Below are positions 11,105-52,839 of a stretch of 54,119 nt of DNA, piece after piece (position 1 is the first letter of the stretch; the number at the start of each line of letters is the position of its first letter). The stretch lies in NCBI GenBank assembly GCA_021846045.1, contig JAJZCM010000006.1, positions 1-54,119 of the forward strand. The letters are read 5' to 3'. The position numbers were made by a program, and so were the translations under genes. The DNA comes from a bacterium (GTDB lineage Bacteria; Elusimicrobiota; Elusimicrobia; UBA1565; UBA9628). Below the pieces are notes generated by a model. That model had not been told where the DNA came from. It made no database searches and worked only from the letters and a program-made list of their open reading frames with translations.

Positions 11105-11187
11105 GATATCCTCCCGTTGAAACGGGTGTATGACTTCGGTCTCGGGAATTTTCCCTGGGAATGAGAAATAAGAGGACCAGTAAAATT

Positions 11188-11215
11188 CGTCATTCCGGCT
11201 TTCGCCGGAATGACG
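11188..11215. repeat. Palindromic repeat, family C (solo copy)
   Basis: Perfect 12-bp inverted repeat CGTCATTCCGGC with a 4-nt loop, between divergent genes. It belongs to the common REP-like class whose translation reads like VIPAKAGIQ or FRRNDE. Other copies here are at 11400-11493, 18144-18171, 19375-19445 and 48811-48936. The rest of 11105-11396 is AT-richer and shows nothing else I can name. Confidence 0.85.
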
Positions 11216-11399
11216 GCCATTTTATTGATGCGAACCGTCAAAACGATCGTTTCCGGAGCGAGTGGATGCCCTTATCTGCATTTCTACTAAAATATTATGA
11301 AAATATAGACACGAAAAATCAAGCGAGATGGTAGTTCTGCGCCCGTCAAACATGGGTTTCAGGAAAAACAAAATTTAAAATGGTATTCTGTTTAAAATG

Positions 11400-11493
11400 G
11401 TAACTACTCACGTCACCCCGACGAAAGTCGGGGTCCAGAGCAGCAATCTTCTGGATTCCGGCTTTCGCCGGAATGACGAACCTGAGCAGTTAC
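11400..11493. repeat. Composite palindromic element, family C, with terminal inverted repeats
   Basis: A 94-bp unit beginning GTAACTACTCACGTCA. It ends TGACGAACCTGAGCAGTTAC, whose reverse complement matches the beginning apart from small changes. Inside are two hairpins: CCCCGACGAAAGTCGGGG and ATTCCGGCTTTCGCCGGAAT. The first about 55 bp recur in reverse at 48882-48936 with about 3 changes. It lies directly in front of the signal peptide of the next gene and is open in frame with it. Confidence 0.8.
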
Positions 11494-18138: not shown

Positions 18139-18143
18139 TTAAT

Positions 18144-18171
18144 CGTCATTCCGGCGAAAGCCGGAATCCAG
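18144..18171. repeat. Palindromic repeat, family C
   Basis: Contains ATTCCGGCGAAAGCCGGAAT (18148-18167), an 8-bp stem with a GAAA loop. Translated it reads VIPAKAGIQ-like. It lies at the left boundary of the 1.3-kb insert. Confidence 0.8.
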
Positions 18172-19158: not shown

Positions 19159-19194
19159 CCCGTCCACTTAGAATTTAAGTGGACGGGTTTTTTT
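19159..19194 (+). terminator. Rho-independent terminator
   Basis: Stem CCCGTCCACTTA / TAAGTGGACGGG (12 bp, loop GAATT) followed by seven T. It ends the transcript of the 227-residue exported protein. Confidence 0.92.
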
Positions 19195-19195
19195 G

Positions 19196-19266
19196 GCGCG
19201 CGTGCCTAAAATCTTTCCCGGAGATGCCCGCGCACGCCTCGCTTTGCGAGCAAGGAACGCAGGCGT
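19196..19266 (-). repeat. Palindromic element, family B, copy 1 (non-coding)
   Basis: On the minus strand it reads GCGTTCCTTGCTCGCAAAGC followed by GAGGCGTGCGCGGGCATCTCC and a GGCACGC end. The first half folds as GCTCGC/GCGAG. The second half pairs GCGTGC with GCACGC. Copies 2, 4 and 5 have CCGAA/TTCGG instead at this outer stem. It lies between the terminator and the family C repeats inside the insert. Confidence 0.75.
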
Positions 19267-19374
19267 GCGTCCGGACAAGGCCCGCTTCCTGACTTCCGCA
19301 GAGGCTAAAAAATCGGCGCCATTCTCGATGAGAGGCCCTTGCAATTTGGGTATCTTGTCCACAATAATAAAACC

Positions 19375-19445
19375 ATCATTGCGGCGAAAGCCGCAATCCA
19401 AGACGGAATCGTCCGGCCTGGACTCCGGCGAAAGCCGGAGTGACG
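19375..19445. repeat. Palindromic repeat, family C, two hairpins
   Basis: Two hairpins, ATTGCGGCGAAAGCCGCAAT and CTCCGGCGAAAGCCGGAG, are separated by 29 nt. The first keeps pairing although its stem differs from the other copies (TGCGGC/GCCGCA). It lies at the right boundary of the 1.3-kb insert. Confidence 0.8.
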
Positions 19446-19455
19446 GGCCGTTGGA

Positions 19456-19500
19456 ACTACTTGAGTAGCGACTTGTGTTTGACGATGACGGCCTTTTCCC
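19456..19500. repeat. 45-bp direct repeat, right copy
   Basis: Identical to 18094-18138. It encodes the last residues and stop (CTA at 19457-19459 read in reverse) of the SurA-like protein and is probably the ancestral copy. Confidence 0.95.
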
Positions 19501-20578
19501 GGAGAGACTTGATGTATTGGTCCATCAGTCTGTGGTTTTCCACGTCCATTAAAATCTCTTTCAGGTAGTTTTTGAATTTATCGAAATCGGGTTTTTCAGC
19601 GGCTTGATGGGATTTGACGCGCACAATGTTGTAGCCCTCGTCGTTGAGAAGAGGATCGCTGATTTGACCGACTTCAAGAGAAAACACGGCTTTATCCAAA
19701 GTCGGCGGCAGAGCGCCTTTGGGGATAAATCCGATGTCTCCTCCGTTGGGCGCGCTGTTGGGGTCCTCGGAATAAACCTTGGCAATTTCAGAAAAGGTGG
19801 AGGTGCCGGTCATTAGCATGGCCTTGTATTGATTGGCGTCTCTAAGAGCGCGCTTTTTCTCCGCTTGTGGATCGTTGGGGGCGACGCGAACTAAAATTCT
19901 GGCGAGTTGAACTCTTTCCGCTGTCGAGGATTTAACCCGCTCCGCCGCCATCATGAAGTCTTGAGCGGCGTAGGGCGTCATTCCCGCCGGGGGCTCGGTG
20001 CTGCCGGAATTGATAAAAACGACGACTTTGTCGAAATAGGTCTGAATCTCAGGGTTCGCCGGAGGCTCGACTTTGGCTTTAACCTCCTGATCCAGAACTT
20101 TCTTGGCCATGACTTGCTTTTCAAGCCGTTTTCGGTATTGTTGATAGGTTAAGCCCATCGCCTTAAGCTGTTTGTCAAAAGCGGCTTGAGCTTGCAGCGG
20201 CGTTAGAGGATTCCCGTTTTCATCCGTGTTAAAGCGAGATTTTATTTCCGACATGGCCTTGTCGATGTCGTCTTGATGAACTTTAAGTTTTAAATCTTTT
20301 CCAGCTTGATAAAGGAGGCGCTGGTCGATCAAATCATCGAGGACCTTATTTTTAATCTGCTGGATGAAAGAAGGGTTGCGCATCGCCATGGGGTTGGTCT
20401 GGGCCATGTCGTTTAAGGTCGCCGCGAGCTCCTTGCGGTAGCGCGACAAAAAAATTGGGGAATTGTTGACGGTCGCGATTATGTCGTCAACCCGGGTGGC
20501 CGCTGCCGGCTTGATTAAGGCCAATGCGGCAATAAATCCTAAAACGGTCGTCCACAGTCGCCTATTTGAATTGTTCAT
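19457..20578 (-). CDS. SurA-like periplasmic peptidyl-prolyl isomerase/chaperone
   Basis: A 373-residue protein starting MNNSNRRLWTTVLGFIAALA, a signal peptide. A SurA N-domain follows (VDDIIATVNNSPIFLSRYRKEL, with LDDLIDQRLLYQAGK). One parvulin domain in the C-terminal third shows LARILVRVAPNDPQAEKKRA, FSEIAKVYSEDPNSAPNGGDIGFI and ISDPLLNDEGYNIVRV. SurA guides outer-membrane proteins through the periplasm. The start at 20578 has GGAG 7 nt before it and overlaps the upstream PPIase stop by 17 nt. It is the last gene of the hemC-mfd-PPIase-PPIase run. Confidence 0.88.
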   Translation of the reverse strand: MNNSNRRLWTTVLGFIAALALIKPAAATRVDDIIATVNNSPIFLSRYRKELAATLNDMAQTNPMAMRNPSFIQQIKNKVLDDLIDQRLLYQAGKDLKLKVHQDDIDKAMSEIKSRFNTDENGNPLTPLQAQAAFDKQLKAMGLTYQQYRKRLEKQVMAKKVLDQEVKAKVEPPANPEIQTYFDKVVVFINSGSTEPPAGMTPYAAQDFMMAAERVKSSTAERVQLARILVRVAPNDPQAEKKRALRDANQYKAMLMTGTSTFSEIAKVYSEDPNSAPNGGDIGFIPKGALPPTLDKAVFSLEVGQISDPLLNDEGYNIVRVKSHQAAEKPDFDKFKNYLKEILMDVENHRLMDQYIKSLREKAVIVKHKSLLK

Positions 20579-21449
20579 CGATGATCTCCACGGGAAACTT
20601 CTTTTGAAGTGATTGCAGGTAGTCATCCAATTTCTGTTTTTCAAGAATTTGGATAAAACGATCTTTATATTTTTCGAAAGAAACCTTGCGCTGGGAGTCT
20701 TTACGGATGACGTGATAGCCAAATTTGGTCTTAATAGGGCCGCTGAGTTCTCCGACCCGCATTTGGAAAATAAGATCTTGAAGCTCAGGGATGATTTCTC
20801 CGTAGAGAGCCGAGGGCATCTTCCCGCCTTTTATCGCTGAGCCGCTGTCAAGGGAATGTTCGCGGGCCAACCGCGCGAAATTGGCGCCTCGGCGCACTTT
20901 TTTGAGAAGGGTTTCCGCTTCTTTGGGAGATGAAACTAAAATCTGGCTGAAAACGACCTCGTAGGGATGTCTTTTCCAGTAAGATTTCGCTTCGTTTTCG
21001 CTAACTGAAGTGATTCTCGTATCCCTTAAATTTTTCTCCCAGTCCTGGATCAAGAGATACTTCAAAGCCTCGTGAAGACGCAGCTTTTCCTCCTCTTTGA
21101 TTCTAGAAGCTTCTTTAAGGTAATAGGGAGATTGCGAGACTTTGGAGGCTTGGGCGGCGGCGAGTTCCAGCTTGTCGCGGATGAGAATGTCTAAAAACTG
21201 CCTTCGCCCATTCGGAGTCATTACGTAATTCTGGTATCCCAGATCAACTTCGCTAAGGGCTTTCTGAAAGTCGGCTTGGGTGATGGACAAAGGGCCCACG
21301 TTGGCGATGACGGCTTCTTTTTTCCCGCACGCGGCGAGAGAAAAGACGACCAGGCCGAACCATAACGTCTTTCCTAGAGATGATTCGGGCCGCTCTCGCT
21401 TCGCGAGCAAGGAACGCAGACTAAAAAAAACCCCTCTTCTCATAATCAA
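20562..21449 (-). CDS. Parvulin-type peptidyl-prolyl isomerase lipoprotein, with family B insertion
   Basis: A 295-residue PrsA/SurA-like protein. The N-terminus ends in a lipobox (FSLAACGKK), so Cys41 should be lipidated. A SurA-N-like helical part (FLDILIRDKLELAAAQ) is followed by a parvulin domain (FSQILVSSPKEAETLLKK, FARLAREHSLDSGSAIKGG, SGPIKTKFGYHVI). Residues about 10-31 (LRSLLAKRERPE...GKTLWFG) are encoded by family B copy 2 and lengthen the signal peptide. A second Met at residue 3 is an alternative start. It lies 11 nt behind mfd. Confidence 0.87.
   Translation of the reverse strand: MIMRRGVFFSLRSLLAKRERPESSLGKTLWFGLVVFSLAACGKKEAVIANVGPLSITQADFQKALSEVDLGYQNYVMTPNGRRQFLDILIRDKLELAAAQASKVSQSPYYLKEASRIKEEEKLRLHEALKYLLIQDWEKNLRDTRITSVSENEAKSYWKRHPYEVVFSQILVSSPKEAETLLKKVRRGANFARLAREHSLDSGSAIKGGKMPSALYGEIIPELQDLIFQMRVGELSGPIKTKFGYHVIRKDSQRKVSFEKYKDRFIQILEKQKLDDYLQSLQKKFPVEIIDEQFK
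21356..21420 (-). repeat. Palindromic element, family B, copy 2 (inside a lipoprotein signal peptide)
   Basis: On the minus strand it begins CTGCGTTCCTTGCTCGCGAA and ends GACGTTATGGTTCGG. First stem GCTCGC/GCGAG, outer stem CCGAA/TTCGG. It is translated in frame as LRSLLAKRERPES...GKTLWFG, the same frame as copies 3 and 4. Confidence 0.85.
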
Positions 21450-32775: not shown

Positions 32776-32818
32776 GAAACCGGTGTCTGAACTTTAAATG
32801 AAAGAAATCGCGCGTGGT

Positions 32819-32938
32819 CTGCGTTCCTTGCTCGCAAAGCGAGAGCGTGTGATCAAGCCATATGGCGAGGAAATGCCATTTCCAGATTCCGAAGGAAAAC
32901 GGCCCGAAGCATCTCCAGGAAAGACGCTATGGTTCGGC
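32819..32938 (+). repeat. Palindromic element, family B, copy 4 (interrupted)
   Basis: Begins CTGCGTTCCTTGCTCGCAAA and ends GACGCTATGGTTCGGC. About 55 bp are inserted between the two halves, containing GGAAATGCCATTTCC (32869-32883), itself a palindrome. It looks like an element within an element. It reads LRSLLAKRER and GKTLWFG in the same frame as copy 2 and lies upstream of the signal peptide of the next gene. Confidence 0.8.
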
Positions 32939-34540: not shown

Positions 34541-34702
34541 AACTTAATGAAACTTAATGAATGGCAGGCGCCACACCCTGCCTTATGCTGAAATTTCAGG
34601 TAGGAAAAATTCGCTGTGGCGTGTTTTTTAATATGACGTATTTAGTCCAAGTTAAAATGTCGTGTTCGGGTGTACCATATTTCTCCCAAGAGGGAGGAAA
34701 AA

Positions 34703-34999
34703 ATGAACATGAACGAGGCGCTAAATATGAGAATGAAAGATCGCGACAGACTGCACATTATCCGCAACGCACTGGCCCACCGATTCACGCAGATAAAAGC
34801 GGCTAAATTATTGGGTTTGAGTCATCGTCAAGTTCAGCGCATTTGCGCTGCGGTCCGTCGGGGAGGCGACAAAGAAATCTTGCATGGATTATGCGGCCAA
34901 CGCTCCAATAATCAACTCAATTCTGAAATGCTTGGTCAAGCCTTGAGCGCGTTGCACCATCCGTCGTGGGAAGGAGCTGCGCGAGCAGTTCTGGCATGA
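34703..34999 (+). pseudogene. ISNCY-like transposase, N-terminal remnant
   Basis: It starts with a strong SD (AGGGAGG). Helix-turn-helix sequence follows (FTQIKAAKLLGLSHRQVQR) and LHGLCGQRSNNQL, the pattern of ISNCY/integrase-core transposases just before the catalytic core. The frame then ends within about 25 unrelated residues. The DDE domain is missing, so this is a truncated remnant. Confidence 0.65.
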
Positions 35000-35373: not shown

Positions 35374-35772
35374 ATGCTCAATGAATTTAAGGCCCGCAAA
35401 ATTCTCGTTGTCGAAGATGAGCCCGATCTTCAGGAAATTTTAACGCATGTCCTTGCCAACGCGGGATATTCGGTTCGCGCGGCGGGAAACGGAGAAGAGG
35501 GGCTCAACCTTTTTGACGAATTCTCTCCGGACTTGGCGCTTTTAGATGTCCACCTCCCGGATATGAGCGGTTTTGAGGTATGCCGCAAAATACGGCAGCA
35601 TAAAAACCGTTCAAAAACCCCCATCATTATCTGCACGGTTCGTTCGGAAACCTCTGGGGTCGCCGAAGGTCTTGACGCCGGAGCGGACGATTATGTCCTC
35701 AAACCTTTTGAGGTCGACGATCTATTGGAAAGGGTTGCGGAAGTTTTTGAGAAAGCGCGTAAAGAAAATTAG
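35374..35772 (+). CDS. Single-domain response regulator (CheY-like receiver)
   Basis: A 132-residue receiver domain. Acidic pair VEDEPD near 12-16, phospho-acceptor Asp in LALLDVHLPDMSGFEV, Thr/Ser position in IIICTVRSE, and Lys in VLKPFEVDD. With no output domain it could act like CheY by binding a target, here perhaps the MotAB/FliFG-like machine, or pass phosphate on. It is the first gene of the RR-RR-motA-motB operon, 3 nt before the next. Confidence 0.92.
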   Translation: MLNEFKARKILVVEDEPDLQEILTHVLANAGYSVRAAGNGEEGLNLFDEFSPDLALLDVHLPDMSGFEVCRKIRQHKNRSKTPIIICTVRSETSGVAEGLDAGADDYVLKPFEVDDLLERVAEVFEKARKEN

Positions 35773-35775
35773 CCC

Positions 35776-36462
35776 ATGCCGAAGATCGTGGTTTTGGATG
35801 ATGAGAAGGAATGGGGCGAACTTTTCTTGGAGGTTTTAAAGGAGTGCGGGTATCCGGCGGTTCATTATTCAACGCCGGGGAAATTCCTTGATCATCTGCA
35901 AAAGGATAAACCGGATCTCGTGATTTTGGATATGCAGCTTCCCGGAATGCACGGGCGAGAAGTCATCCGCATCCTTCGAGCAAACGAGGAAACAAGGGGA
36001 GTTCTCATTGTTGCTGTTTCCGGCCATGATATCGGCAGTCCTCATGCCATCAAGGCCTTCGAGGCCGGGGCCGATGAATACCTGCCTAAACCCGTTGATA
36101 TTCCCCTTCTTCGCGTGCGGCTGGCCGCTCTCTTTCGGCGCGGAACCGGCGGGCAGGATTTGACGGTCAATCAAATTAAGGTGGGGGATATCGTCATTTC
36201 CCCGGAAAGTCATTCCGCCGAGATTAAAGGCCGCTTTCTTAAGCTGACAAATCTTGAGTTCGAGCTTTTGTTGGCTTTTGTCAAACAGCAAAATCGTGTT
36301 TTGACGCGTGGCATCATTTTGGAGACGGTCTGGAAGACAAGTTCCGAAATTGGCACGCGGACGGTTGACAAGCATGTCGAGTCTCTAAGAAAGGAGCTCG
36401 GAAATTTCGGCAAGAAAATCGAGACGGTTGTCGGCATTGGTTACGTTTTTAGGAACGGATAA
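35776..36462 (+). CDS. OmpR/PhoB-type response regulator
   Basis: A 228-residue protein. The receiver domain (about 1-118) has VLDDEKEW, phospho-Asp in LVILDMQLPGMHG, and LPKPVDIP. The winged-helix DNA-binding domain (about 130-228) shows LKLTNLEFELLLAFVKQQNR, TVDKHVESLRKELG and VVGIGYVFR. It is likely a transcription factor for the motor locus or its own regulon. Its stop overlaps the motA ATG (TAATG). Confidence 0.93.
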   Translation: MPKIVVLDDEKEWGELFLEVLKECGYPAVHYSTPGKFLDHLQKDKPDLVILDMQLPGMHGREVIRILRANEETRGVLIVAVSGHDIGSPHAIKAFEAGADEYLPKPVDIPLLRVRLAALFRRGTGGQDLTVNQIKVGDIVISPESHSAEIKGRFLKLTNLEFELLLAFVKQQNRVLTRGIILETVWKTSSEIGTRTVDKHVESLRKELGNFGKKIETVVGIGYVFRNG

Positions 36463-37265
36463 TGGACGCCTCCTTATGGATTGGCTTTGTTTCCATCGTG
36501 GCCCTGATCGGTTGGGCGGTTTTAAAGGCGGGTTTTACCGTCTCTTCGACCGACGTTTATGGCGTGATTCTTGTCCTCGGGGGCTTGGTCACCAGCATGA
36601 TGGTCAATTACTCGTTTCATGATTTGTTCCGCGCTTTTAAGAGGTTTGCTTCCCTCTTTTTCCGCTCCCGAGCGCCGAGCGTCGAGAGTGCGATTGAACA
36701 GATTGCGGTCCTTTCGCGCAAAGCCCAAAAAGAGGGCGGAATTTTAGCCCTTCAGTCGGAAAATATCGATTTTGCCGGTGGGTTTTTAAAGCGCGCGATT
36801 TTAGTGGCCGTCTCGACCGGAGAATCGTCCGAAACGCGGCGCGTGATGGAGACCCATATTCGGCGTGTGCGCCTGGAACGGCAGGAAGATGCCAATACGT
36901 TTAGGACCATGGCCGTTTTATCTCCAATGTTCGGCCTTCTGGGAACCCTTTTGGGAATGGTGCGTGTTCTTCAGTCGATGTCGGACCCCATGAAGGCGGC
37001 GGCGGGGATGGCGCTTGCCTTATCGTCGGCTTTCCTGGGTATTACGATCGCCAATGCCGTTTGCGTTCCCATCGCCGGAAAAATCCGCCTCAACGCGATG
37101 GAAGAGACGATGATCCTTGATCTATTGCTCGAAGGCGTTCTCGATATTGCCGCTGGAAAACCTCCTTATTTGATTGAACTTCATTTGTCCGCCTATGCCG
37201 AGCGCACGGGCGAGGCCACTCGCTCGGCCACGGCGCCCGCCGCTCCCGTGCGGGAGACCCCGTGA
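36462..37265 (+). CDS. motA: MotA-like stator protein
   Basis: A 267-residue protein with four membrane helices: about 3-25, 33-50, then a cytoplasmic loop of about 100 residues, then about 152-175 (LSPMFGLLGTLLGMVRVLQS) and 185-208 (ALSSAFLGITIANAVCVP). This is the MotA/TolQ/ExbB ion-channel pattern, and GLLGTLLGMVRVL is closest to MotA. Together with MotB it would use ion flow to generate torque or thrust. motB starts 4 nt inside its end (GTGA). Confidence 0.88.
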   Translation: MDASLWIGFVSIVALIGWAVLKAGFTVSSTDVYGVILVLGGLVTSMMVNYSFHDLFRAFKRFASLFFRSRAPSVESAIEQIAVLSRKAQKEGGILALQSENIDFAGGFLKRAILVAVSTGESSETRRVMETHIRRVRLERQEDANTFRTMAVLSPMFGLLGTLLGMVRVLQSMSDPMKAAAGMALALSSAFLGITIANAVCVPIAGKIRLNAMEETMILDLLLEGVLDIAAGKPPYLIELHLSAYAERTGEATRSATAPAAPVRETP

Positions 37266-37891
37266 GCTCTTGGCAGGAAAGAGAAGAAGAGCTGGAATCC
37301 CAGCTCAATCGCGGAGCCTTATGGGCGATTACCTACGGCGACATGATGAGCTACTTGATGATTTTCTTCATGATCCTCTATGTTGGAACGGCATCGAGAA
37401 GCATCAAAGCGCAAATGAGTTCGAAATCCATAGAGGAGCATTTTGGAGGAAAGGGAACGGTGGTGTCTGAACTTTTCTCTCGTCATGGAATACAGAAGAT
37501 TGCAAAACTTGAGATCGGCGAAAATAAGATCCGCATTGTTTTCCAAGCCCCGGTTCTCTTCGATTCAGGGTCGGCCAATCTTAAGAGAGGGTCCGCAGCG
37601 GGCCTTAGGCAGTTGGCGCAGGCACTCAAGGAATTGCCCAACAATATTCAAATCGAAGGGCACACCGATAACCAGCCTCTGGGGCCGCATTCGCATTTCG
37701 CGTCCAATTGGGAGTTGTCGGCGGCGCGGGCTTTTGCCGTCTTAAGATTCCTTGAGTCCGAGGGAGTTGCCGCTTCCCGCTTATCCGCAATCGGCTACGG
37801 CGAATTTCGCCCCGTTGCGCCGAACACGACGGAAGCGGGTCGAATGGAAAACCGGCGTATCGAGATCAACATTATGCGGCGCGAGAAGTAG
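37262..37891 (+). CDS. motB: MotB-like stator protein with OmpA peptidoglycan-binding domain
   Basis: A 209-residue protein starting at GTG. A single membrane helix follows the ion-binding Asp in YGDMMSYLMIFFMILYVGT, the MotB plug/channel motif. The C-terminal OmpA/MotB domain (about 95-205) has FDSGSANLKRG, IEGHTDNQPLG, NWELSAARAFAV and MENRRIEI, and should anchor the stator to peptidoglycan. It converges with the kinase gene, overlapping by 20 nt. Confidence 0.9.
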   Translation: MSSWQEREEELESQLNRGALWAITYGDMMSYLMIFFMILYVGTASRSIKAQMSSKSIEEHFGGKGTVVSELFSRHGIQKIAKLEIGENKIRIVFQAPVLFDSGSANLKRGSAAGLRQLAQALKELPNNIQIEGHTDNQPLGPHSHFASNWELSAARAFAVLRFLESEGVAASRLSAIGYGEFRPVAPNTTEAGRMENRRIEINIMRREK

Positions 37892-40037
37892 CATTGGTTG
37901 GCGCTGCGCGCGGAATCCGGAAAATAAACCGGCTGCCTTTCCCCAGTTCCGATTCGACCCATATTCGTCCGCCGTGGAGTTCGACGACTTTCTTGCATAT
38001 TGCAAGTCCCAGACCGTAGCCCGATCTCGATTTTGCTCCCGGAACCTGCTCGAATTTTCCGAAAACGCTTTGGAGCGCGGTTTTGGGAATTCCCGGTCCG
38101 GTGTCGGCTACGCAAAATTCAATTTCTCCGGTTTTAACGCTTCCCGCAGAAACGGTGATGGCTCCGTTCGTGGGGGTGAATTTAAGGGCGTTTCCGATAA
38201 GATTCATGACGACGCGATCAAGAAGTTCCTTGTCGCAGAGAAAGTCATGAGGTGGAGTCCCGGTGGCAAACTCGATATTGATTCCCTTGCCAAGGGCTTG
38301 AACCCCGTAAAGAAGGCGCATATTCTCAAGAATTTTACCGACATCGGTCGCGTCCAAGTTGAGTTGGAGCGTTCCCGACTCCATCTTGGCGATATCAAGA
38401 ATATCTTTCATGAGAGAACCCAACCTTGCCCGGGCTTGTTCGGAGTAGCCAAGGTATTTTTTCTCCCCGTCGTCGATATGACCGGATTTTCTAAGTAAAC
38501 TGAAGAAAGCGGAGAAGGGGGTTAAAAGATTTCCGATATCGTGGGCGACGGAATGGAAAAAGTCCTCTTTCATTTTCGCCAGTTGCTTCTCGACAGTGAT
38601 GTCGCGGAGGAGAATTAATATTCCGATGTCCTTTTTCCCTGAATTGACGATTGTTCCTGCCGCGGAGAAAATCCCACTGCTTTGTCCCGAGGAAGAAAAT
38701 AGTTCTATGTCGGTGTGACTCTCCCGCTTTTTTCGATTCATGAGTTCCGAGATCGCGTTTAAAAGTTTCGGCTGTTTTATGATCGAACGAATGCCGCCGG
38801 GCGGAATTTCATTAGAAAGAACGTTAAGCCCCAGAATCAGTCGTCCGACTGCATTGATGTGGAGAATGCTTCCGTTAAAATCCGCCATGATGACGCCTTC
38901 GGGAATATTGTGGACCAGCCCCAGAATCAGGGCGCGCTCCTCCAGCACTTTCTCAATCTGTAAATTATGGAAAGCTCGCAACGCCCCGGCCATCAGATTG
39001 AAGTTCTGGGCGACGCTTTTGAGCTCGCCCCAGCCTTCCTCGGGGAGAGGCTTGGAAAAATCGTTTTTAGCGACGCGTTGGGCGGCCAGCGCTAGGCGTT
39101 CCAAAGGGGGGGCCAAGCGGCTGGTCACCCACCAGGCGCCCGCAACCGAGATGACACAGAGAAAAAGGAAAAAAGACAGGACCTTAACGGCATATCCCTG
39201 GGGACGCGCGAAGGCCTCGGCCCTCGGTTCAAGGCTGACAGACCAAGCGTTGAATGTCGGAATGGAGTGATAGGCGCCGACAAGCGATCCGCGCTTACTT
39301 TTGAGATTTGAATTCCATCCTGATTCTTGATTGAGATTCCCCGACCAGATCCAGTGAGATGAGGGAAATTTTGGCGCGATGCCGGCTATTTTTTTGCCGT
39401 TTGAATCAAGCAGAATCAGGCGTCCGCTTTGCCCGACCTTAATTGCGGAAAGCTTGCTCCATAAATCCTTGAGCGAATACTCGATATAGAGACAGCGCCC
39501 GCCAGAGAGAGGATAGGCCACGGGAATCATCGGAACGTTTTTTCGAAATACTACTTGGCCAATTTGAGCGGCTTTGCTCTTTTTCGCCGCAGCCATTAAC
39601 GCGTCCGAGAGGGCGCGGTCAAGGCCGGAGGCCGAGCGTCCCGTGCGCCCTTGGGAAATTCGTTGGCGCTCGGGGCTGGACAGGTTATAGAGGTCAGGGT
39701 CTAAGATCGGCGGAAATTCCGTTTTTCCGGAAGAGTCAAACAGGGAAAGGTATTCCAGTTTGCTGTTTCCGGCCGCGGCTTGCTCAAGGACGCGAGAATC
39801 TCGGGCAGAGTTGCTTTTGGATCCGTTTTCTAAATCTTCGATAAATCCCAGGGATTTATTCATTTCCGCGGCGGTTGTTTCCGCCATTTGAGCGGAGAGT
39901 TTCGCAATCTCAAGGTGAAATCTCTTGGCGTTGGCGCGTTCCGCGGCATTTGAATTAATCGTCCAAAGGCCGAATAAGACCGCCGGAAGAAGGGCAAAGG
40001 CTAATAAGATCACTAAAAAGCGCTGAAAAAAACTCAC
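37872..40037 (-). CDS. Sensor histidine kinase (periplasmic sensor, HAMP, PAS), with family A insertion
   Basis: A 721-residue membrane kinase. Membrane helix 1 at about 8-26, then a periplasmic dCache-like sensor of about 245 residues, then helix 2 at about 277-299. HAMP follows (RLAPPLERLALAAQRVAKND), and PAS at about 365-475 (GVIMADFNGSILHINAVG). The H-box has His near 497 in HSVAHDIGNLLTPF. The ATPase shows LLDRVVMNLIGNALKFTP, DTGPGIP and GYGLGLAI. Residues about 133-142 in the sensor domain (GRSASGLDRA) are encoded by a family A palindromic element. It is the last gene of fliFG-kinase-kinase and probably the partner of the receivers on the other strand. Confidence 0.92.
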   Translation of the reverse strand: MSFFQRFLVILLAFALLPAVLFGLWTINSNAAERANAKRFHLEIAKLSAQMAETTAAEMNKSLGFIEDLENGSKSNSARDSRVLEQAAAGNSKLEYLSLFDSSGKTEFPPILDPDLYNLSSPERQRISQGRTGRSASGLDRALSDALMAAAKKSKAAQIGQVVFRKNVPMIPVAYPLSGGRCLYIEYSLKDLWSKLSAIKVGQSGRLILLDSNGKKIAGIAPKFPSSHWIWSGNLNQESGWNSNLKSKRGSLVGAYHSIPTFNAWSVSLEPRAEAFARPQGYAVKVLSFFLFLCVISVAGAWWVTSRLAPPLERLALAAQRVAKNDFSKPLPEEGWGELKSVAQNFNLMAGALRAFHNLQIEKVLEERALILGLVHNIPEGVIMADFNGSILHINAVGRLILGLNVLSNEIPPGGIRSIIKQPKLLNAISELMNRKKRESHTDIELFSSSGQSSGIFSAAGTIVNSGKKDIGILILLRDITVEKQLAKMKEDFFHSVAHDIGNLLTPFSAFFSLLRKSGHIDDGEKKYLGYSEQARARLGSLMKDILDIAKMESGTLQLNLDATDVGKILENMRLLYGVQALGKGINIEFATGTPPHDFLCDKELLDRVVMNLIGNALKFTPTNGAITVSAGSVKTGEIEFCVADTGPGIPKTALQSVFGKFEQVPGAKSRSGYGLGLAICKKVVELHGGRIWVESELGKGSRFIFRIPRAAPTNATSRAA
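39612..39648. repeat. Palindromic element, family A, copy 1 (inside kinase gene)
   Basis: The core GTCAAGGCCGGAGGCCGAGC is shared with 44596 and 48751. The outer arms GGGCGC and GCGCCC pair. It encodes GRSASGLDRA on the minus strand. Confidence 0.85.
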
Positions 40038-40039
40038 GC

Positions 40040-41518
40040 TTATTGATCTCCAGGATTTAGCGGCGGAATGGGAATTTGACCGGCGCCGGGAAATCGAAGA
40101 ATGACGGCGGCGCCTTGAGGTTTTAAATTTTCAACTTCGATGTCGCCGGCAGCTCGGCGAAGAATTCGGCGCGCGAGAGACAGGCCCAAGCCCAGGTGTC
40201 CTTGGCGAGAGAAAGTAAAGGGAATGAAAATTTTCTCGAGGGCTACGTCTGAAAACCCCGGACCGGTGTCGGCGAAAACGATTTTGACTTGCCCGTTTTC
40301 CGGCTCTTCCCCAGCCGTGATTTTAAGGGTTCCCCCTTTCGGCATGGCCTCGAAGGCGTTTCGGAATATTTGATAGAATACCGTGTGCAGAGATGTTGAC
40401 GCAATCGAGACGGCGGGGAGACCGGCGGGAATTCCTCGTGAAATTAAAATCCGCTTGCGACGAAAAAGGCCTTCCCAAATTCCCGCAGACGCATTGAGAG
40501 CGGCCTCAAGATTTTCGGGGGTTCTGGGCGGAGGCGATTCATTCAAAAATTCTCCGATGACTCTCAGGGTGTCTGAGGCTTGCGCCAAGGAACCTATGGC
40601 TAGGCCAAGAATTGCGCGCGGGCCTTCCGGAAGACGAACGGCGGCGAGTTGTTTAACGCGCGCGCTGGCTGAGGCAATGGGATCTTTGAGGTTTGCCAGT
40701 GCCCTCATCCATTCCGGTTCCATGGAAAAGTCAATTGAGGGCGAAAGGAGACGCTCCGGAGACTCTTCTCGGCCCTCTTTGCTTTCCTCTAGGGGGACCG
40801 CTTCCATGGGGACGGACTCAATTCTCAACTGTTCGTTTTCGGAAATGGCGGCATTTTTTTCCCGCGTGGCCGCTTCGACTTCCATCCGTAATTTTTCAAG
40901 CTCTCTTTCAAAATCAGCTTTTTTCTCGGCGAGTTTTGAGTTGAGATTCGCGCTTTCGGAAATGGCGGCGTTTTTTTCCTGCGCGGCTACTTCGGCTTCC
41001 CCGAGCGAATTTTGGAGTTTTTTTTCGAGATCCGCGATTTTTTCGGCGAGTTGCGCGTTAAGATTCGCGCTTTCTGAAATCTTGACACGGGCCGCTTCTC
41101 CGGACGCCTTCAAGTCCAAATTTTCATCGAGAAGAGATTTCTTGCTCGCTTCTTCTGATCCAAGCAATTCGCGAAGGGAAGCTTGCTCCCATTTAAAATT
41201 TTGGGCTTGCTTTTTAATTTCAATTTTGAGCGCTGATATTTCTTTCTCTAGCGCCGCGCATTCTTCATCTTTTGATTCGTATTTTTCGAGGGTGGCCTCT
41301 ACCATTGATTTGTATTTTTCCAGGATGGACACTACCATTGGTTCGTATTTTCCCAAGATGGCCGCTACCATCTGGTTCTTATTCTCGGATAAAACAAAAT
41401 TTTCTTCTATCGCGAAGGCGGCGGATTGCTCGCTTAGGTTATCCTCGAACGAGGGGGTATCCATGTTTTGGAGAAACGGTGTCCACTTTAGTTTGCCGGA
41501 ATCTCCTTGGTCTTCCAT
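40040..41518 (-). CDS. Soluble kinase-like protein: coiled coil plus GHKL ATPase domain
   Basis: A 492-residue protein with no membrane helix. Residues about 50-85 hold three 11-residue repeats (ILGKYEPMVVS, ILEKYKSMVEA, TLEKYESKDEE). A long coiled coil at about 85-250 contains a duplicated unit (AAISESANLNSKLAEKKADF). The C-terminal GHKL ATPase has FRNAFEAMPKGG, FADTGPGFSD and GHLGLGLSLA. The place of the phospho-acceptor reads LANLKDPIASA, where kinases have LAHExxNPLxxx, so the usual His is missing. It may act as a scaffold, a phosphatase or a partner of the membrane kinase. It abuts fliFG. Confidence 0.8.
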   Translation of the reverse strand: MEDQGDSGKLKWTPFLQNMDTPSFEDNLSEQSAAFAIEENFVLSENKNQMVAAILGKYEPMVVSILEKYKSMVEATLEKYESKDEECAALEKEISALKIEIKKQAQNFKWEQASLRELLGSEEASKKSLLDENLDLKASGEAARVKISESANLNAQLAEKIADLEKKLQNSLGEAEVAAQEKNAAISESANLNSKLAEKKADFERELEKLRMEVEAATREKNAAISENEQLRIESVPMEAVPLEESKEGREESPERLLSPSIDFSMEPEWMRALANLKDPIASASARVKQLAAVRLPEGPRAILGLAIGSLAQASDTLRVIGEFLNESPPPRTPENLEAALNASAGIWEGLFRRKRILISRGIPAGLPAVSIASTSLHTVFYQIFRNAFEAMPKGGTLKITAGEEPENGQVKIVFADTGPGFSDVALEKIFIPFTFSRQGHLGLGLSLARRILRRAAGDIEVENLKPQGAAVILRFPGAGQIPIPPLNPGDQ

Positions 41519-43132
41519 CTAGATTAGCTCCGAAGCGCCTTTTTCTCCGATCACAATTTCGCCCCGGTCCGCCAAGACTTGGGCGCGAGACAGAAGGTTG
41601 GAGCGGATTTCAATGACTTTTGCCCGCGGCTGCGGGGACTCCATGGCTTCTCGTGCGGCGTCACGCGCGCCCTCGGGTATTTGTTTGAGAATGGCGTCAA
41701 TGAGAATTTGAGGCGCTCCTCTCAGAGCCATTCCCCATTCCTGATAGTTTGTCCCCATGATGACGCGGCGAAGATCGGATTCTTTAAGATTGTAGAGATC
41801 TTCAAAACTAAAAAGCGATTCTTCAAGTTCGCTGGCCGCTTCCGGGTTTTGAGGAGTGAGACCGCTGACGACGCTTTTCCTCTCTTCGGCCGGAAGGCGG
41901 CTGAGAATCTTTCCAAGCCTTTCGGGGCCGCGCACTCCAAATTCGACGAGATTGCGGAGCTTGCTTTCTAAAGCATCGAGCTTTTCGGGGTCCGTGCGGT
42001 TAATCCCTAGAAGCAATTGGGAGACTTCCTTTTGTTTTTGAACCGGGAAAACGGCAAAAATTCCTGCGGCGATCTCAGGGTTTACTCCAGCCAGAGACGC
42101 GAGCAAAAGCGCGATGTCTTCTGCGGGTTCCGGGAGCAAAAGGGGAGTCAAATCTTGCGGCGACTTGGATGACAGAAAGTCGAATCTTTGTCCCAAGGCC
42201 GCAGGCGGCTCGGCCTCAAGCCCGATGGGAGAGATTTCGCCGGAAAGGCTGGGAATTCCTCCGGGAAGAATTTCTGTGATGCGGGACTTTTCCAAAGCTC
42301 CGGCGGTATTTGAATCGGCAAGGGCGGAAGCCGTATTTTGCGCCCTTCGGGCTTCCGCGAGTTCGGAAACGAAGGTCTTGACGACGCGCATGGCGGTTAT
42401 ATAGAGAATGGAGCCAAAAATCAGCATTAAGACCAGGGCTCCCAGAAGTATCAAAAGCGTTCCCGCCGCCTTGGGGCTGGCGATGAAATTCTGCAGGGCC
42501 GATTTCCACGGCGGGACTAGATCCGCGCGCAGAATGCTCAATTGGTCTCCTCGCGCGGGATCGAGATGGAGAACGCTGGGGAGAAGGCGTTCGGCCTCCT
42601 TGGCCTTTTGATCTGGAACGCTTAAGTCAATGACGACTGAAACCAAAAGTTTCTTGATGACAAATCCCTCGGAAACATTGGAGTCGTCCCGGGACTCCCG
42701 CACCGGGGATAATGAGTTTGTCGGCGCGGTTGTCGTTTCTTCGGAAGGCGGGGGAGGTGGAGAGCCCTGGGCGTAATTTGTGAACCCCTGAGGAGCCTTA
42801 AGGCCTTCCGGTAAAAGCCTTTGACCGTATCCTGGCATGAAACTCGGCGGCTCTTTAGTTTTTTTAGGAGAAGCTTCTTGCGGCGTTTGAGTAGGGATAA
42901 AAAGCGAGGTCGAGCTTCGGCTGTGCCGAAGTTCTCCGGAAACCGAAACGGTGACCCTGGCTTTTCCTGGGCCCAGGAGAGCCGATAAAAAATCCATCGC
43001 TTGGGAAGTGATTTGATCGGCGATAGCGGTTTCCTCGGGGCTTTGAGCTCTGAGGGGAAGCGCTAAAGTCAAAAATATCAGGGCGGGGACAAAAACGAGA
43101 CGTAGGCAACGCCGAATGTTTAGCATACCCAT
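41519..43132 (-). CDS. Natural FliF(C-terminal part)-FliG fusion
   Basis: A 537-residue protein. A signal or anchor helix at 1-30 is followed by a FliF ring-building domain in two parts: SQAMDFLSALLGPGKARVTV (44-63) and FVIKKLLVSVVIDL...HLDPARGDQLSI (157-200). A Pro/Ser-rich loop (about 75-155) sits between them. A membrane helix at 222-250 comes next, then a linker. FliG middle domain at about 330-412 (DIALLLASLAGVNPEIAAGI), and FliG C-terminal domain at about 438-530 (FSFEDLYNLKESDLRRVIMG, MALRGAP, RGEIVIGEKG). The N-terminal FliF ring domains and FliG-N are absent; in flagella FliG-N binds the FliF tail, which a fusion makes unnecessary. The FliG charged torque helix reads GARDAAREAM, keeping only part of the usual Arg/Asp pattern. 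It heads an operon with two kinase-like genes and faces motAB. Confidence 0.82.
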   Translation of the reverse strand: MGMLNIRRCLRLVFVPALIFLTLALPLRAQSPEETAIADQITSQAMDFLSALLGPGKARVTVSVSGELRHSRSSTSLFIPTQTPQEASPKKTKEPPSFMPGYGQRLLPEGLKAPQGFTNYAQGSPPPPPSEETTTAPTNSLSPVRESRDDSNVSEGFVIKKLLVSVVIDLSVPDQKAKEAERLLPSVLHLDPARGDQLSILRADLVPPWKSALQNFIASPKAAGTLLILLGALVLMLIFGSILYITAMRVVKTFVSELAEARRAQNTASALADSNTAGALEKSRITEILPGGIPSLSGEISPIGLEAEPPAALGQRFDFLSSKSPQDLTPLLLPEPAEDIALLLASLAGVNPEIAAGIFAVFPVQKQKEVSQLLLGINRTDPEKLDALESKLRNLVEFGVRGPERLGKILSRLPAEERKSVVSGLTPQNPEAASELEESLFSFEDLYNLKESDLRRVIMGTNYQEWGMALRGAPQILIDAILKQIPEGARDAAREAMESPQPRAKVIEIRSNLLSRAQVLADRGEIVIGEKGASELI

Positions 43133-43181: not shown

Positions 43182-44654
43182 TTATTTTTTTCCAAAGGCG
43201 GTATAGTGCCAAGGTTTGCGGGCGTCCCCGGTCATGTCCGCCATCACGTGCTTAACAACGGTGAATTCTTCCAACGCCTGAAGAGACAGATCCTTCCCAA
43301 AGCCCGACTGGTTAAAACCGCCATGCGGGGTTTCGGAAGCCAGTGGCAGATGATCGTTGATCCAGACGGTTCCAAATCTAAGGGCGGATGAAACTCTCAG
43401 CGCCCGTTGGGCGTTTGAGGTCCAAACGGAAGCCGCAAGCCCGTATTCGACGTCGTTGGCAAGTTGAACGGCCTCGGCCTCGTCTTTAAACGGCAAAAGA
43501 CAAACGACGGGCCCGAAAATCTCTTTTTGAACGAGTTCGGAGTTTTGCGCGGCTTTAAGGATAACCGTGGGATTGAGGAAAAATCCGCTTTTGAGGTTTG
43601 AGGGGCGGTCGCCGCCGCAGAGAATTTCCACATTTTTCGCGCGCTCTAAAAACCCCTCGACCTGGCTGCGGCGCTCTGCTGAAATAAGAGGCCCCATGTC
43701 GGTTTGGGGATTATCAAAAAGCCCGAGCTTTATTTTTTTCGTCTCTTTAAGAAAATCGGTGACGAAACGGTCAAAAACTTTTTTGTGGATGTAAAGGCGG
43801 GTGGAGGCGGTGCAATCCTGCCCGGCATTGACGAAAGACCCGACAACGGCGCCTTGGACGGCGGCGGATAAATGGGCGTCGTCAAAAACGATAAAGGGGG
43901 CTTTTCCGCCAAGTTCTAAATGAAGGCGCTTGACGGTGCGGGACGCTTGGGACATGATTTTGCGCCCGGTTTCGGTGTCTCCGGTAAAGGAAATCATCTT
44001 GATTGCGGGGTGGGTAGTGAGAATTTTTCCGGTTTCTTCGCCGCCCAAGACGACATTGATGACGCCTTCCGGAATACCTGCTTTTAGGGCCAGTTTCGCG
44101 ATTTCAAGCGTGGTTAAGGGAGTTAATTCCGCAGGCTTAATAACGCAGGAATTTCCGGCGGCCAAGGCCGGAGCTAGTTTCCAAACGGCCATCATCAGCG
44201 GATAATTCCATGGAGTGATCAAGGCGATGGGGCCGATGGGTTCCCGTTTTAAAAATGAAAGATAGCCGGTCGCGTATTCGGCTGAAGCCGGGGCTTCTAA
44301 GACTCTCGCGGCGGAGGCGAAAAAACGCAGATTGTCGACGGCGAAAGGCAAATCTCCATCTTGGGATAGTTTGAGGGGCTTGCCGGTATTTTTGGATTCC
44401 AAGAGAGCGAGGCGGGCGGAATTTTCTTCAATGAGATTGGCCCAAGAGAAAAGAAGTCCGGCCCGCTCGGCCGGGGATTTTGAGGCCCAAAGCGGGAAGG
44501 CCTCTTGGGCATCGGAAACGGCGGAATTAACTTTTTTTTCGTCGGCATCCTGAACGCAGGCGATGATTTTCTCGGTTGCAGGAGAAATAATGACGCGGTC
44601 AAGGCCGGAGGCCGAGCGTCCGCGTTGATTAAGCAGTTCCAGGTTCTTTGTCAT
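43182..44654 (-). CDS. Aldehyde dehydrogenase, aminobutyraldehyde-type, with family A insertion
   Basis: A 490-residue NAD(P)-dependent dehydrogenase. ITPWNYPLMMAVWKLAPALAAGN, GSFVNAGQDCTASTR with the catalytic Cys, and LELGGKAPFIVFDDA with the general-base Glu are visible. NAGQDCTA resembles gamma-aminobutyraldehyde and related omega-aminoaldehyde dehydrogenases. Near the N-terminus LNQRGRSASGLDRVIISPAT replaces the usual INGEW...NPAT stretch, and GRSASGLDR is a family A element. I set the start at 44654, inside the 3' end of patA (26 nt overlap), with GGAG about 12 nt upstream. By context it oxidises the aldehyde made by the adjacent aminotransferase. Confidence 0.9.
   Translation of the reverse strand: MTKNLELLNQRGRSASGLDRVIISPATEKIIACVQDADEKKVNSAVSDAQEAFPLWASKSPAERAGLLFSWANLIEENSARLALLESKNTGKPLKLSQDGDLPFAVDNLRFFASAARVLEAPASAEYATGYLSFLKREPIGPIALITPWNYPLMMAVWKLAPALAAGNSCVIKPAELTPLTTLEIAKLALKAGIPEGVINVVLGGEETGKILTTHPAIKMISFTGDTETGRKIMSQASRTVKRLHLELGGKAPFIVFDDAHLSAAVQGAVVGSFVNAGQDCTASTRLYIHKKVFDRFVTDFLKETKKIKLGLFDNPQTDMGPLISAERRSQVEGFLERAKNVEILCGGDRPSNLKSGFFLNPTVILKAAQNSELVQKEIFGPVVCLLPFKDEAEAVQLANDVEYGLAASVWTSNAQRALRVSSALRFGTVWINDHLPLASETPHGGFNQSGFGKDLSLQALEEFTVVKHVMADMTGDARKPWHYTAFGKK
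44591..44627. repeat. Palindromic element, family A, copy 2 (inside aldehyde dehydrogenase gene)
   Basis: Core GTCAAGGCCGGAGGCCGAGC with outer arms ACGCGG and CCGCGT, which pair although they differ from copy 1. It encodes GRSASGLDRV on the minus strand. Confidence 0.85.
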
Positions 44655-48679: not shown

Positions 48680-48844
48680 ATGACGAACAGACATCGTCTT
48701 GTGGCGCTTTTTCTGGTTTCGCTTTCGTGGTCCTCTTCGGTTTTGGCGCGGTCAAGGCCGGAGGCCGAGCGTCCGCGTTGCGTTTTGGGGAAGGCTGGTC
48801 TCGGTGGGATTTCCCGGCGAAAGCCGGAATCCGACCGAGCGTAG
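48680..48844 (+). pseudogene. Exported-protein remnant interrupted by repeats
   Basis: ATG at 48680 begins a good signal peptide (MTNRHRLVALFLVSLSWSSS, VLA). Directly after the cleavage point the frame runs into family A copy 3 and a family C hairpin (RSRPEAERPRC, ISRRKPES) and stops. The mature domain appears lost. The rest of 48549-48932 holds the gabT promoter, the repeats and about 50 nt of unassigned DNA. Confidence 0.5.
48746..48778. repeat. Palindromic element, family A, copy 3
   Basis: Core GTCAAGGCCGGAGGCCGAGC with outer arms CGCGG/CCGCG. It lies right after the signal-peptide sequence of the remnant gene at 48680. Confidence 0.85.
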
Positions 48845-48936
48845 GCGAGGAAGTGCCGCTTCCAAGTTTGTTGAAGAGCGGCCAGAAGATCGCTACTCTG
48901 GACTCCGACTTTCGTCGGGGTGACGTGAGTAGTTAC
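48811..48936. repeat. Two family C repeats at the acr3 3' end
   Basis: TTCCCGGCGAAAGCCGGAAT (48811-48830), then at 48882-48936 a reverse copy of 11400-11454 ending GTGAGTAGTTAC. The GTAAC end of the second supplies the acr3 stop codon (48933-48935 in reverse). Confidence 0.8.
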
Positions 48937-49979
48937 ATTTTATCCTTGAAAAATAATGACAGGTTGACCAGCAAGATCATGGTGGGAACTTCGATGAGGG
49001 GGCCGATGACGGCCGCAAAGGCTTGGCTGGAACCCACGCCAAAGACAGCGACGGCCACCGCGATGGCGAGCTCGAAATTATTGCTGGCCGAGGTAAAAGA
49101 CAAGGTCGCCGTCTTTTCATAACTCGCGCCCGCCCGGCGGCTAAGCCAAAAGCTCGCTAAAAACATCGCCACGAAGTAGATGAGGAGGGGAACGGCGATG
49201 CGAAAAACATCAAAGGGGATCGTCACGATCGTCCGGCCTTTGAGGCTGAACATGACGACGATCGTGAATAAGAGGAAAATTAAGGTCAGCGGGCTGATGC
49301 GCGGGATGAAACGAGCGTGATACCAGTCTTTGCCCCTGGCCTTAACTAAAAACAGGCGCGTAAGCATGCCCGCGACAAAAGGAATTCCAAGGTAGAGAAA
49401 GACTGTTTTTGCGATTTGGCCCATTCCTATTTGGATGCTTGTTCCCGGCAGCCCCAAAAGCGGAGGGAGTACGGAAATAAAAACGTAGGCATAGGCGCTG
49501 AAAAAGAGAACCTGAAAAATGCTGTTGAACGCCACCAGTCCTGCGGCGTATTCGGCGTCTCCGCCGGCCAGATCGTTCCAAACGATAACCATCGCGATAC
49601 AACGCGCAAGGCCGATCAAAATCAGGCCGGTCATATAACCCGGATAATGGCGCAAAAACAAAACGGCGAGTGCGAACATTAACAGCGGCCCGATGACCCA
49701 ATTGAGGAGTAGAGAAAGCCCGAGTATTTTCTTGTCCCGGAAAACGTCTCCCAGTTCCTCATAACGTACCTTGGCCAGCGGCGGATACATCATGAGAATG
49801 AGGCCGATGGCGATGGGAATATTGGTCGTTCCTCTTTGGAATCGTCCGATGAAGGTCGCCGTTCCAGGGAAGAAATATCCCCGTCCCACTCCCAGCGCCA
49901 TCGCGGCGAAAATCCACGCCGTGAGGTAGCGGTCCAGAAATGAAAGGCGCTTGGCTTGCGTGCCGCTGGGATTATTCAT
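48933..49979 (-). CDS. acr3: Arsenite efflux permease, ACR3 family
   Basis: A 348-residue, about 10-helix permease of the ACR3/BASS family. The conserved Cys is in [19 protein letters not shown], and the Glu helix is in [18 protein letters not shown]. It exports arsenite formed by ArsC, driven by the membrane potential. Its first base overlaps the arsC stop. The stop codon belongs to a family C repeat, so the last residues may differ from the ancestral end. Confidence 0.95.
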
Positions 49980-52398: not shown

Positions 52399-52839
52399 AT
52401 GATTCATTGGAAAAGGCATAGGAACTCTTTGGCGGCTTTGATTGTCGCGTTTGTTGCCATGCTTATTATTTCTTTCCTGTGGAAGAAACAAGAGATTTGC
52501 GTTCATGCGGCGGTGGGGCTTTTGGTCGCGTGGGTTTTGTCGAGCGCGAGTTTGTTTGTTCTGGATTCGGCCTGCGTTCCTTGCTCGCGTAGCGAGAGCG
52601 TGCCGAAGCATCTCCAGGAAAGACGTTATGATTCGGCCTCATCCTCAATGAGCGCCTTCTTTAAGGTTTGGCTGGGCGGTATTTTTGCAAGAGTTCTTTG
52701 CTTGGGAGTTCTAATGGCTTTCGCTTGGACTTGGCCCGCGTCTTCGCAAGCGGCTCTTCTTCTTTCCTATTGTTTTGGCGTATTCGCTTTTCTTCTCATT
52801 GAATCCCGTGATATCCTTTCAAAGGCTTGCGCGCGATGA
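52399..52839 (+). CDS. AtpI-like membrane protein with family B insertion
   Basis: A 146-residue protein with four predicted membrane helices (about 10-28, 34-55, 88-112, 118-135), typical of AtpI-like proteins between atpZ and atpB. Residues about 58-80 (ACVPCSRSESVPKHLQER) are encoded by family B copy 5 and sit in the loop between helices 2 and 3. Removing 66 bp (22 codons) would restore an ordinary loop in frame. The atpB ATG at 52836 lies at its 3' end. Confidence 0.65.
   Translation: MIHWKRHRNSLAALIVAFVAMLIISFLWKKQEICVHAAVGLLVAWVLSSASLFVLDSACVPCSRSESVPKHLQERRYDSASSSMSAFFKVWLGGIFARVLCLGVLMAFAWTWPASSQAALLLSYCFGVFAFLLIESRDILSKACAR
52571..52638 (+). repeat. Palindromic element, family B, copy 5 (inside AtpI-like gene)
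   Basis: Begins CCTGCGTTCCTTGCTCGCGT and ends GACGTTATGATTCGGC. Outer stem CCGAA/TTCGG. It is flanked by 10-bp direct repeats GATTCGGCCT (52564-52573 and 52630-52639), a possible target duplication. It is translated in a different frame from copies 2-4 (CVPCSRSES). Confidence 0.85.

Follow-up and report, generated by a model that had tools for sequence, protein, structure and literature searches.

Gene content of the locus

A compact set of motor and signalling genes lies at positions 35,374 to 43,132 of contig JAJZCM010000006.1 (GenBank assembly GCA_021846045.1). The contig belongs to a metagenome-assembled genome of the phylum Elusimicrobiota (2.0 Mb, 97% complete; here G000), and the whole stretch analysed, 54,119 nucleotides, is referred to as the window. 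The locus encodes the stator proteins MotA and MotB, a fusion of FliF with FliG (FliFG), and several two-component signalling proteins (Table 1). Genes for two response regulators (RR1 and RR2), motA and motB form a closely packed operon on the plus strand, in which motA and motB overlap by 4 bp. On the minus strand, fliFG comes first, then the gene of a coiled-coil protein with a HATPase domain, then that of a Cache-HAMP-PAS-HisKA-HATPase kinase. The plus- and minus-strand operons are convergent, and their 3' ends overlap by 20 bp (37872-37891). An earlier reading of the letters alone (the original prediction) had named these seven genes and their convergent order, and profile matches confirmed both gene by gene. 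It had also proposed that they encode a reduced rotor-stator machine under kinase control.

Table 1. Genes of the motor locus and domains of the fusion protein (window coordinates).
Feature	Position	Strand	Evidence
RR1, single-domain response regulator (CheY-like receiver)	35374..35772	+	Pfam Response_reg 1.8e-32; orthologue in same position in congeners and other genera
RR2, OmpR-type response regulator (receiver and winged helix)	35776..36462	+	Response_reg 4.9e-19, Trans_reg_C 8e-19; syntenic
MotA, stator pore/torque subunit	36462..37265	+	MotA_ExbB 1.4e-19
MotB, stator axle with plug and OmpA-like peptidoglycan-binding domain	37262..37891	+	MotB_plug 6.6e-10, OmpA 6e-20
Sensor histidine kinase (Cache, HAMP, PAS, HisKA with H, HATPase)	37872..40037	-	Pfam; syntenic histidine kinase in relatives
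Coiled-coil HATPase protein, directly downstream of fliFG, no HisKA	40040..41518	-	HATPase_c 9.6e-16
FliF-FliG fusion, 537 aa	41519..43132	-	YscJ_FliF_C, FliG_M and FliG_C profiles; fold search; tree
FliF RBM3-like periplasmic domain (residues 49-201), long disordered insert at collar position	42530..42988	-	YscJ_FliF_C 2.1e-7; Foldseek to FliF S-ring structures 7e-5 to 4e-4
Single transmembrane helix (about residues 221-247)	42392..42472	-	Hydrophobic stretch; model helix 220-267
FliG middle domain (residues 325-395)	41948..42160	-	FliG_M 1.1e-7; fold match to FliG-M structures, root-mean-square deviation (rmsd) 1.6-1.9
FliG C-terminal (torque) domain (residues 425-528)	41549..41860	-	FliG_C 1.8e-17; fold match to stator-bound FliG-C 8ucs_H, rmsd 1.6 over 85 columns

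The rotor and stator proteins

The fusion protein begins with a hydrophobic signal or anchor, followed by the RBM3-like domain, the transmembrane helix, a disordered linker, FliG_M and FliG_C. A profile of 14 relatives matched FliG M and C in the PDB at 4.5e-30 and FliF at 5e-4. Independently of profiles, the AlphaFold model (mean predicted local distance difference test score 68.5, folded domains mostly 65-92) matched by fold the FliG MC structures, stator-bound FliG-C, and FliF RBM3 and S-rings. The C-terminal half is thus FliG by profile, by solved structure and by fold. The predicted retention of the membrane-proximal ring domain of FliF, one helix, and FliG M and C was borne out, the tree described below agreeing with the profiles and the fold search. 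Neither RBM1/RBM2 (YscJ_FliF) nor FliG_N, the FliF-binding domain, gave a Pfam match in the window fusion; the role of FliG-N is replaced by the covalent joining of FliF to FliG.

The stator keeps the residues of its channel, proton site and peptidoglycan binding. MotA matched the NCBIfam PomA/MotA profiles over its full length (1e-41 to 1e-25), but under the flagellar equivalog cut-offs, and its own profile matched solved MotA/PomA structures at 1e-57 to 1e-26. The pore prolines P155 and P203 are invariant in the MotA alignment. In MotB, the membrane aspartate (D27 in window numbering) and the peptidoglycan-binding motifs EGHTD and NRR are invariant, and the plug is kept. On the rotor side, the position equivalent to D288 of FliG is acidic in 45 of the 46 proteins of the two largest fusion classes, A (28/28) and B (17/18, as E or D); the classes are defined below. 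In class B, to which the window belongs, the K264 equivalent is basic in 17/18 (as R), and the basic residue near the R297 position is displaced.

Distribution without a flagellum

The original prediction of a motor without a flagellum, made from the window, holds for FlhA and FliM/FliN across the genome. The window gene is not the sole FliF/FliG of a flagellum encoded elsewhere: the whole of G000 has no match to FlhA (PF00771) or to FliM/FliN (PF01052). No rod, hook or filament gene was recognised among the scanned window proteins, and no genome-wide search was made for these. In a survey of 251 Elusimicrobiota genomes, each at least 85% complete, FliG_C was found in 114 and FlhA in three, and 112 of the 114 genomes with FliG_C have no FlhA. 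Closer comparison covered 57 genomes, among which only one (G051) has a FliM/FliN match. The presence of FliG agrees with that of MotB in 53 of the 57 (46 with both, seven with neither, four discordant; Fisher p 3e-6, uncorrected for kinship).

The picture of a single fusion had to be corrected, since G000 encodes a second fliF/fliG that is itself a fusion. This protein (654 aa, contig C9) carries C-terminal TPRs, and a MotA, MotB and coiled-coil gene set on contig C77 matches the remainder of its operon. In another genome, G136, flagellar FlhA and a short FliG lie on one contig and a 640-aa fusion on another; the fusions are therefore distinct from flagella.

The search for FliF_C-FliG_C fusions covered Elusimicrobiota and 14 control genomes. 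In the FliG tree, at least four paralogous classes were resolved. Class A (28 rows, support 99) is the most widespread, and its deep forks largely track species. Class B comprises 18 rows (support 98), and within it the window protein groups with those of the congeners G001 and G003 (support 100). Class C has four rows (support 100), and the five rows of class D lie inside a group of six supported at 99. A candidate of the C9 type (L044:1065-3404, L numbers denoting stretches cut around matches) was rejected and not counted; it is a TPR protein without FliG, and its label came from the TPR repeats.

Each class has its own gene order. Genes in the relatives, which are high in GC, were labelled from all open reading frames together with profiles. 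Class A loci (L091, L055) read two Gly-rich proteins, a PorV-like barrel with TPRs, FliFG-TPR, a long coiled coil, MotA, MotB and a caspase-like gene. The class B order is a large and a small CHU_C protein, a PorV-like barrel with TPR, a histidine kinase, FliFG, the coiled-coil HATPase protein and a second histidine kinase, converging on MotB-MotA-RR2-RR1. In class C, FliFG is accompanied by MotA and a pair of MotB genes. Class D has a PorV-like barrel, a single kinase-FliF-FliG protein, a coiled coil, MotA and MotB. Of 41 FliG loci, 33 have MotA or MotB within 7 kb, and 27 have a PorV-like gene no more than 5 kb away. The original prediction had suggested seeking the fusion together with motAB in related genomes; class B loci in convergent order with MotAB occur in ten genomes besides the window (L035/L093, L036/L092, L041/L095, L042/L100, L044/L103, L045, L046/L105, L047/L101, L053 and L104).

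Two side observations concern the stator genes. A Peptidase_C14 (caspase-fold) gene stands directly downstream of class A MotAB (L054:7056-8645, L055:6475-8064). In class C and related loci (L061, L062, L063, L068 and L073), a single MotA gene and two distinct MotB genes adjoin FliFG, which suggests a hetero-dimeric stator axle.

A proposed outer-membrane module

The motor part of the locus stands as the original prediction had it, but it belongs to a larger cluster that also has outer-membrane components resembling those of the type 9 secretion system (T9SS). In relatives, CHU_C, PorV-like and histidine kinase genes lie upstream of fliFG, where the window has an aldehyde dehydrogenase gene. 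In G000, these genes are on contig C8 (L080: 253-654, 651-2645 and 2642-3976), and the PorV-like protein is 67% identical to that of G001. We read this separation from fliFG as a rearrangement in the window species. Just upstream of the RR-motAB operon, a frame containing HTH_23 (window 34670-34999) resembles a broken transposase remnant; it is compatible with such a rearrangement and is no proof of one. G000 also has a paralogous RR-HK-PorV-CHU_C-CHU_C cluster (HK, histidine kinase) with neither FliFG nor MotAB (L081:6918-13040).

The PorV-like proteins matched NCBIfam PorV_fam (2.6e-16 and 1.4e-23; 60-84 bits vs a cut-off of 90), PorV in the PDB (3e-7) and, by fold, the T9SS PorV 8gl6_F. The CHU_C proteins matched the T9SS type B sorting domain (TIGR04131, 30-31 bits vs a cut-off of 35), and all but one of those scanned passed the Pfam CHU_C cut-off. 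A homologue of the T9SS translocon SprA, of about 1800-1930 aa, was found in 55 of the 57 genomes (PDB SprA 1.4e-29; TIGR04189 1e-21 but under its cut-off). That of G000, a SprA/Sov-like protein of 1916 aa, is on contig C63 (L119:375-6125). GldM is the usual motor subunit of the T9SS, and no GldM match (PF12081) above cut-off was obtained in any of the 57. Flavobacterium uses GldLM as the power source for T9SS secretion as well as for gliding (PMC8986121). We therefore propose that MotAB and FliFG power or regulate such a module in Elusimicrobiota.

Kinases and signalling partners

The class D proteins combine HisKA-HATPase, FliF_C, FliG_M and FliG_C in one polypeptide (L065:4789-7620, L088:11099-13624 and L067:3591-6107, in G001, G003 and G044). 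G002 (L090) and G035 (L066) have homologous open frames that are full-length and comparable in size. As one paralogous class is a kinase-FliF-FliG fusion, the kinases belong to the motor system, and the gene structures give strong evidence that kinase and rotor would work together. Fully resolved class B clusters hold two kinases, one kinase-like coiled-coil protein and usually two regulators. A coiled-coil partner adjoins FliFG in classes A, B and D. In an alignment of 27 rows, about half of them duplicate loci, the coiled-coil HATPase protein has no conserved H-box or phospho-acceptor histidine; it may therefore act as an ATP-binding partner and not as a kinase.

Both signalling genes on the minus strand carry repeats. 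A dispersed repeat of about 37 nt occurs at window 39611-39647, 44591-44627 and 48744-48780, the first copy within the kinase gene. The window kinase is 721 aa long vs about 697 aa in congeners, so this copy may be an in-frame insertion. A 117-nt tandem duplication (75% identical, window 40834-41067) lies in the coiled-coil part of the HATPase protein.

Other features of the window

Further dispersed palindromic repeat families lie between genes and at gene starts (window 11175-11479, 18143-18171, 48882-48941, 19193-21421, 32816-32938 and 52569-52646). A protein of 1164 aa (window 5332-8826) has NHL beta-propeller repeats, a weak transglutaminase-like match and TPRs. An Rfam scan of the window gave no RNA matches.

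Discussion

The locus very probably encodes a working non-flagellar rotor-stator pair. The reduced machine of the original prediction is supported by the kept MotAB residues and by the kinase-FliF-FliG fusions, and its rotation and purpose are put conditionally here. The locus would be the motor half of a non-flagellar rotary machine spanning the envelope. FliFG subunits would form an inner-membrane ring through the RBM3-like domain, with FliG-M and FliG-C on its cytoplasmic face. Since the ring itself would carry these domains, FliG-N and a separate MS ring would not be needed. A MotA5MotB2 stator, held to peptidoglycan by the OmpA domain of MotB, would use ion flow to push FliG-C. On its periplasmic side, the ring may contact and act on the PorV/PorP-like barrel with its periplasmic TPRs, and on the CHU_C surface proteins. 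Surface adhesins would then be moved or exported, as GldLM drives T9SS/SprB gliding of Bacteroidota, and the linked kinases and response regulators would gate the motor or read its load. A kinase-controlled role in surface movement or in adhesin display or secretion is likely. The chances are about even that this specific arrangement, a MotAB-driven FliFG rotor under kinase control working the PorV/CHU_C module for surface movement or secretion, is the right one. A wider reading is conceivable, if somewhat less probable. In that reading, the non-flagellar rotary envelope machines of Elusimicrobiota make up a family with several paralogous kinds in each genome. MotAB would turn a fused FliF-FliG ring, in some kinds the histidine kinase would belong to the rotor polypeptide itself, and a T9SS-like PorV/CHU_C/SprA apparatus would be driven in place of GldLM.

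Several observations weigh against a rotor that works an outer-membrane module. FliM positions FliG-C in flagella and is missing here. The PorV/CHU_C part of G000 is on a different contig from fliFG, and the PorV, SprA and sorting-domain scores are all under the NCBIfam curated cut-offs. Some class B loci, in genus g9 (L037 and L038), have no MotAB within 7 kb, and in most class C loci no PorV was detected within 5 kb. SprA is present in all eight of the FliG-less genomes among the 57. The motor is therefore not obligatory for the T9SS-like translocon, and an obligate FliFG-SprA coupling was rejected. At the torque interface, R281 is lost in class A, R281 and D289 are mostly lost in class B, and E98 of MotA is replaced by Q or R in class B. 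In E. coli, the stator-rotor charge pairs are R90/D288-D289 and E98/R281 (PMC12505986). Because the acidic D288 position is kept while the R281/E98 side is lost, one of the two pairs could persist, judging from the aligned residues. A strict co-loss of E98 and R281 between MotA and FliG was dropped as an explanation, as MotA of the flagellated G051 also has Q at E98.

The main rival is a mechanosensor that does little or no useful work. In such a device, load or surface contact of the FliFG ring would be read by adjacent or fused kinases and relayed to RR1 and RR2, which would control adhesin genes. The abundance of kinases and regulators in class B, the histidine kinase fused to the class D rotor and the coiled-coil partner beside FliFG all fit this idea. 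It is nonetheless unlikely as the whole account, given that class A has no kinase in its resolved operons (L055 and L091) and that the stator retains a complete ion channel and peptidoglycan anchor. It is compatible with the rotary machine, and both could hold. Less probable again is an energiser without rotation, in which MotAB would act on envelope proteins as TolQR or ExbBD do, with FliFG as a static ring-shaped scaffold that holds kinases or the outer-membrane module. Motors of 5:2 stoichiometry driving non-rotor partners are common (PMC12204202; PMC9389320), and both the absence of FliM/FliN and the loss of the R281/E98 pair agree with such a function. A static scaffold would need no FliG-C, so the near-invariance of the stator-facing acidic position counts against it, as does the co-occurrence of FliG with MotB.

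Flagellar gene relics are known in other non-motile bacteria (PMC12199754), and the locus could in principle be a decaying remnant without function. This is very improbable for genes that are full-length, syntenic, multi-copy and phylum-wide, with invariant functional residues, new fusions and, in class A, tree-like inheritance; in G136 a fusion even coexists with flagellar genes. An assembly or binning artefact would accord with contigs that are fragments of metagenome-assembled genomes and with the PorV part lying on another contig. Its probability is close to nil, as the fusion and the convergent order recur in ten other genomes from independent assemblies, which argues equally against chance. 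Readings of the locus as a relic or a chance arrangement were rejected on synteny and conservation.

Elusimicrobiota cells may thus operate as yet undescribed rotary machines in their envelope. The locus offers a concrete, testable, phylum-wide and multi-copy case of a FliG motor without a flagellum, with a bearing on how the flagellum originated or was dismantled. Its minimal rotor-stator pair of three genes is suited to structural work, and the kinase-rotor fusions open motor-coupled signalling to direct testing.

Comparison with known systems

Like the flagellar motor, the locus has a MotA/MotB stator that includes a plug and a peptidoglycan anchor, the RBM3 domain of FliF, and the folds of FliG M and C. 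It differs in that the window fusion lacks RBM1/2 and FliG-N, that G000 lacks FliM/N and FlhA, and that FliF and FliG are one polypeptide, with kinase and PorV/CHU_C genes alongside. AglRQS of Myxococcus gliding, TolQR, ExbBD and ZorAB are likewise 5:2 ion-driven motors outside flagella; we know of none among them with a FliF/FliG rotor.

No description of FliFG-MotAB in Elusimicrobiota, or of any non-flagellar FliG motor, was found in a literature search whose reach excluded subscription papers and preprints. The original prediction knew of no account of the exact layout, which agrees with this search, but a natural FliF-FliG fusion of another kind is known in the non-flagellated Chlamydia (Bergeron 2016, PMC4768692). 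The Chlamydia fusion keeps part of the SctJ-like (RBM1/2) region, has no RBM3 and carries FliG-M only (PMC4768692), whereas the window fusion has RBM3 and FliG-M and FliG-C. Chlamydia has FlhA and an injectisome, and its named flagellar genes (FliF, FliL and FlhA) include no MotA/MotB (PMC4768692); G000 has no FlhA, and its locus has MotAB. In Salmonella and Vibrio, FliF has been joined to FliG by engineering, and the products still form rings and permit rotation (PMC11481574; PMC4768692), but these are artificial and sit inside a complete flagellum.

GldLM of Bacteroidota (PMC8986121) is also an ion-driven inner-membrane motor whose genome or gene cluster encodes SprA, PorV-like and type B sorting-domain proteins as well. 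Here, GldM is undetected above threshold, the SprA, PorV and sorting-domain scores are sub-cut-off, and the motor is of the MotAB type with a FliG rotor. The comparison suggests that T9SS-like systems are able to use another motor.

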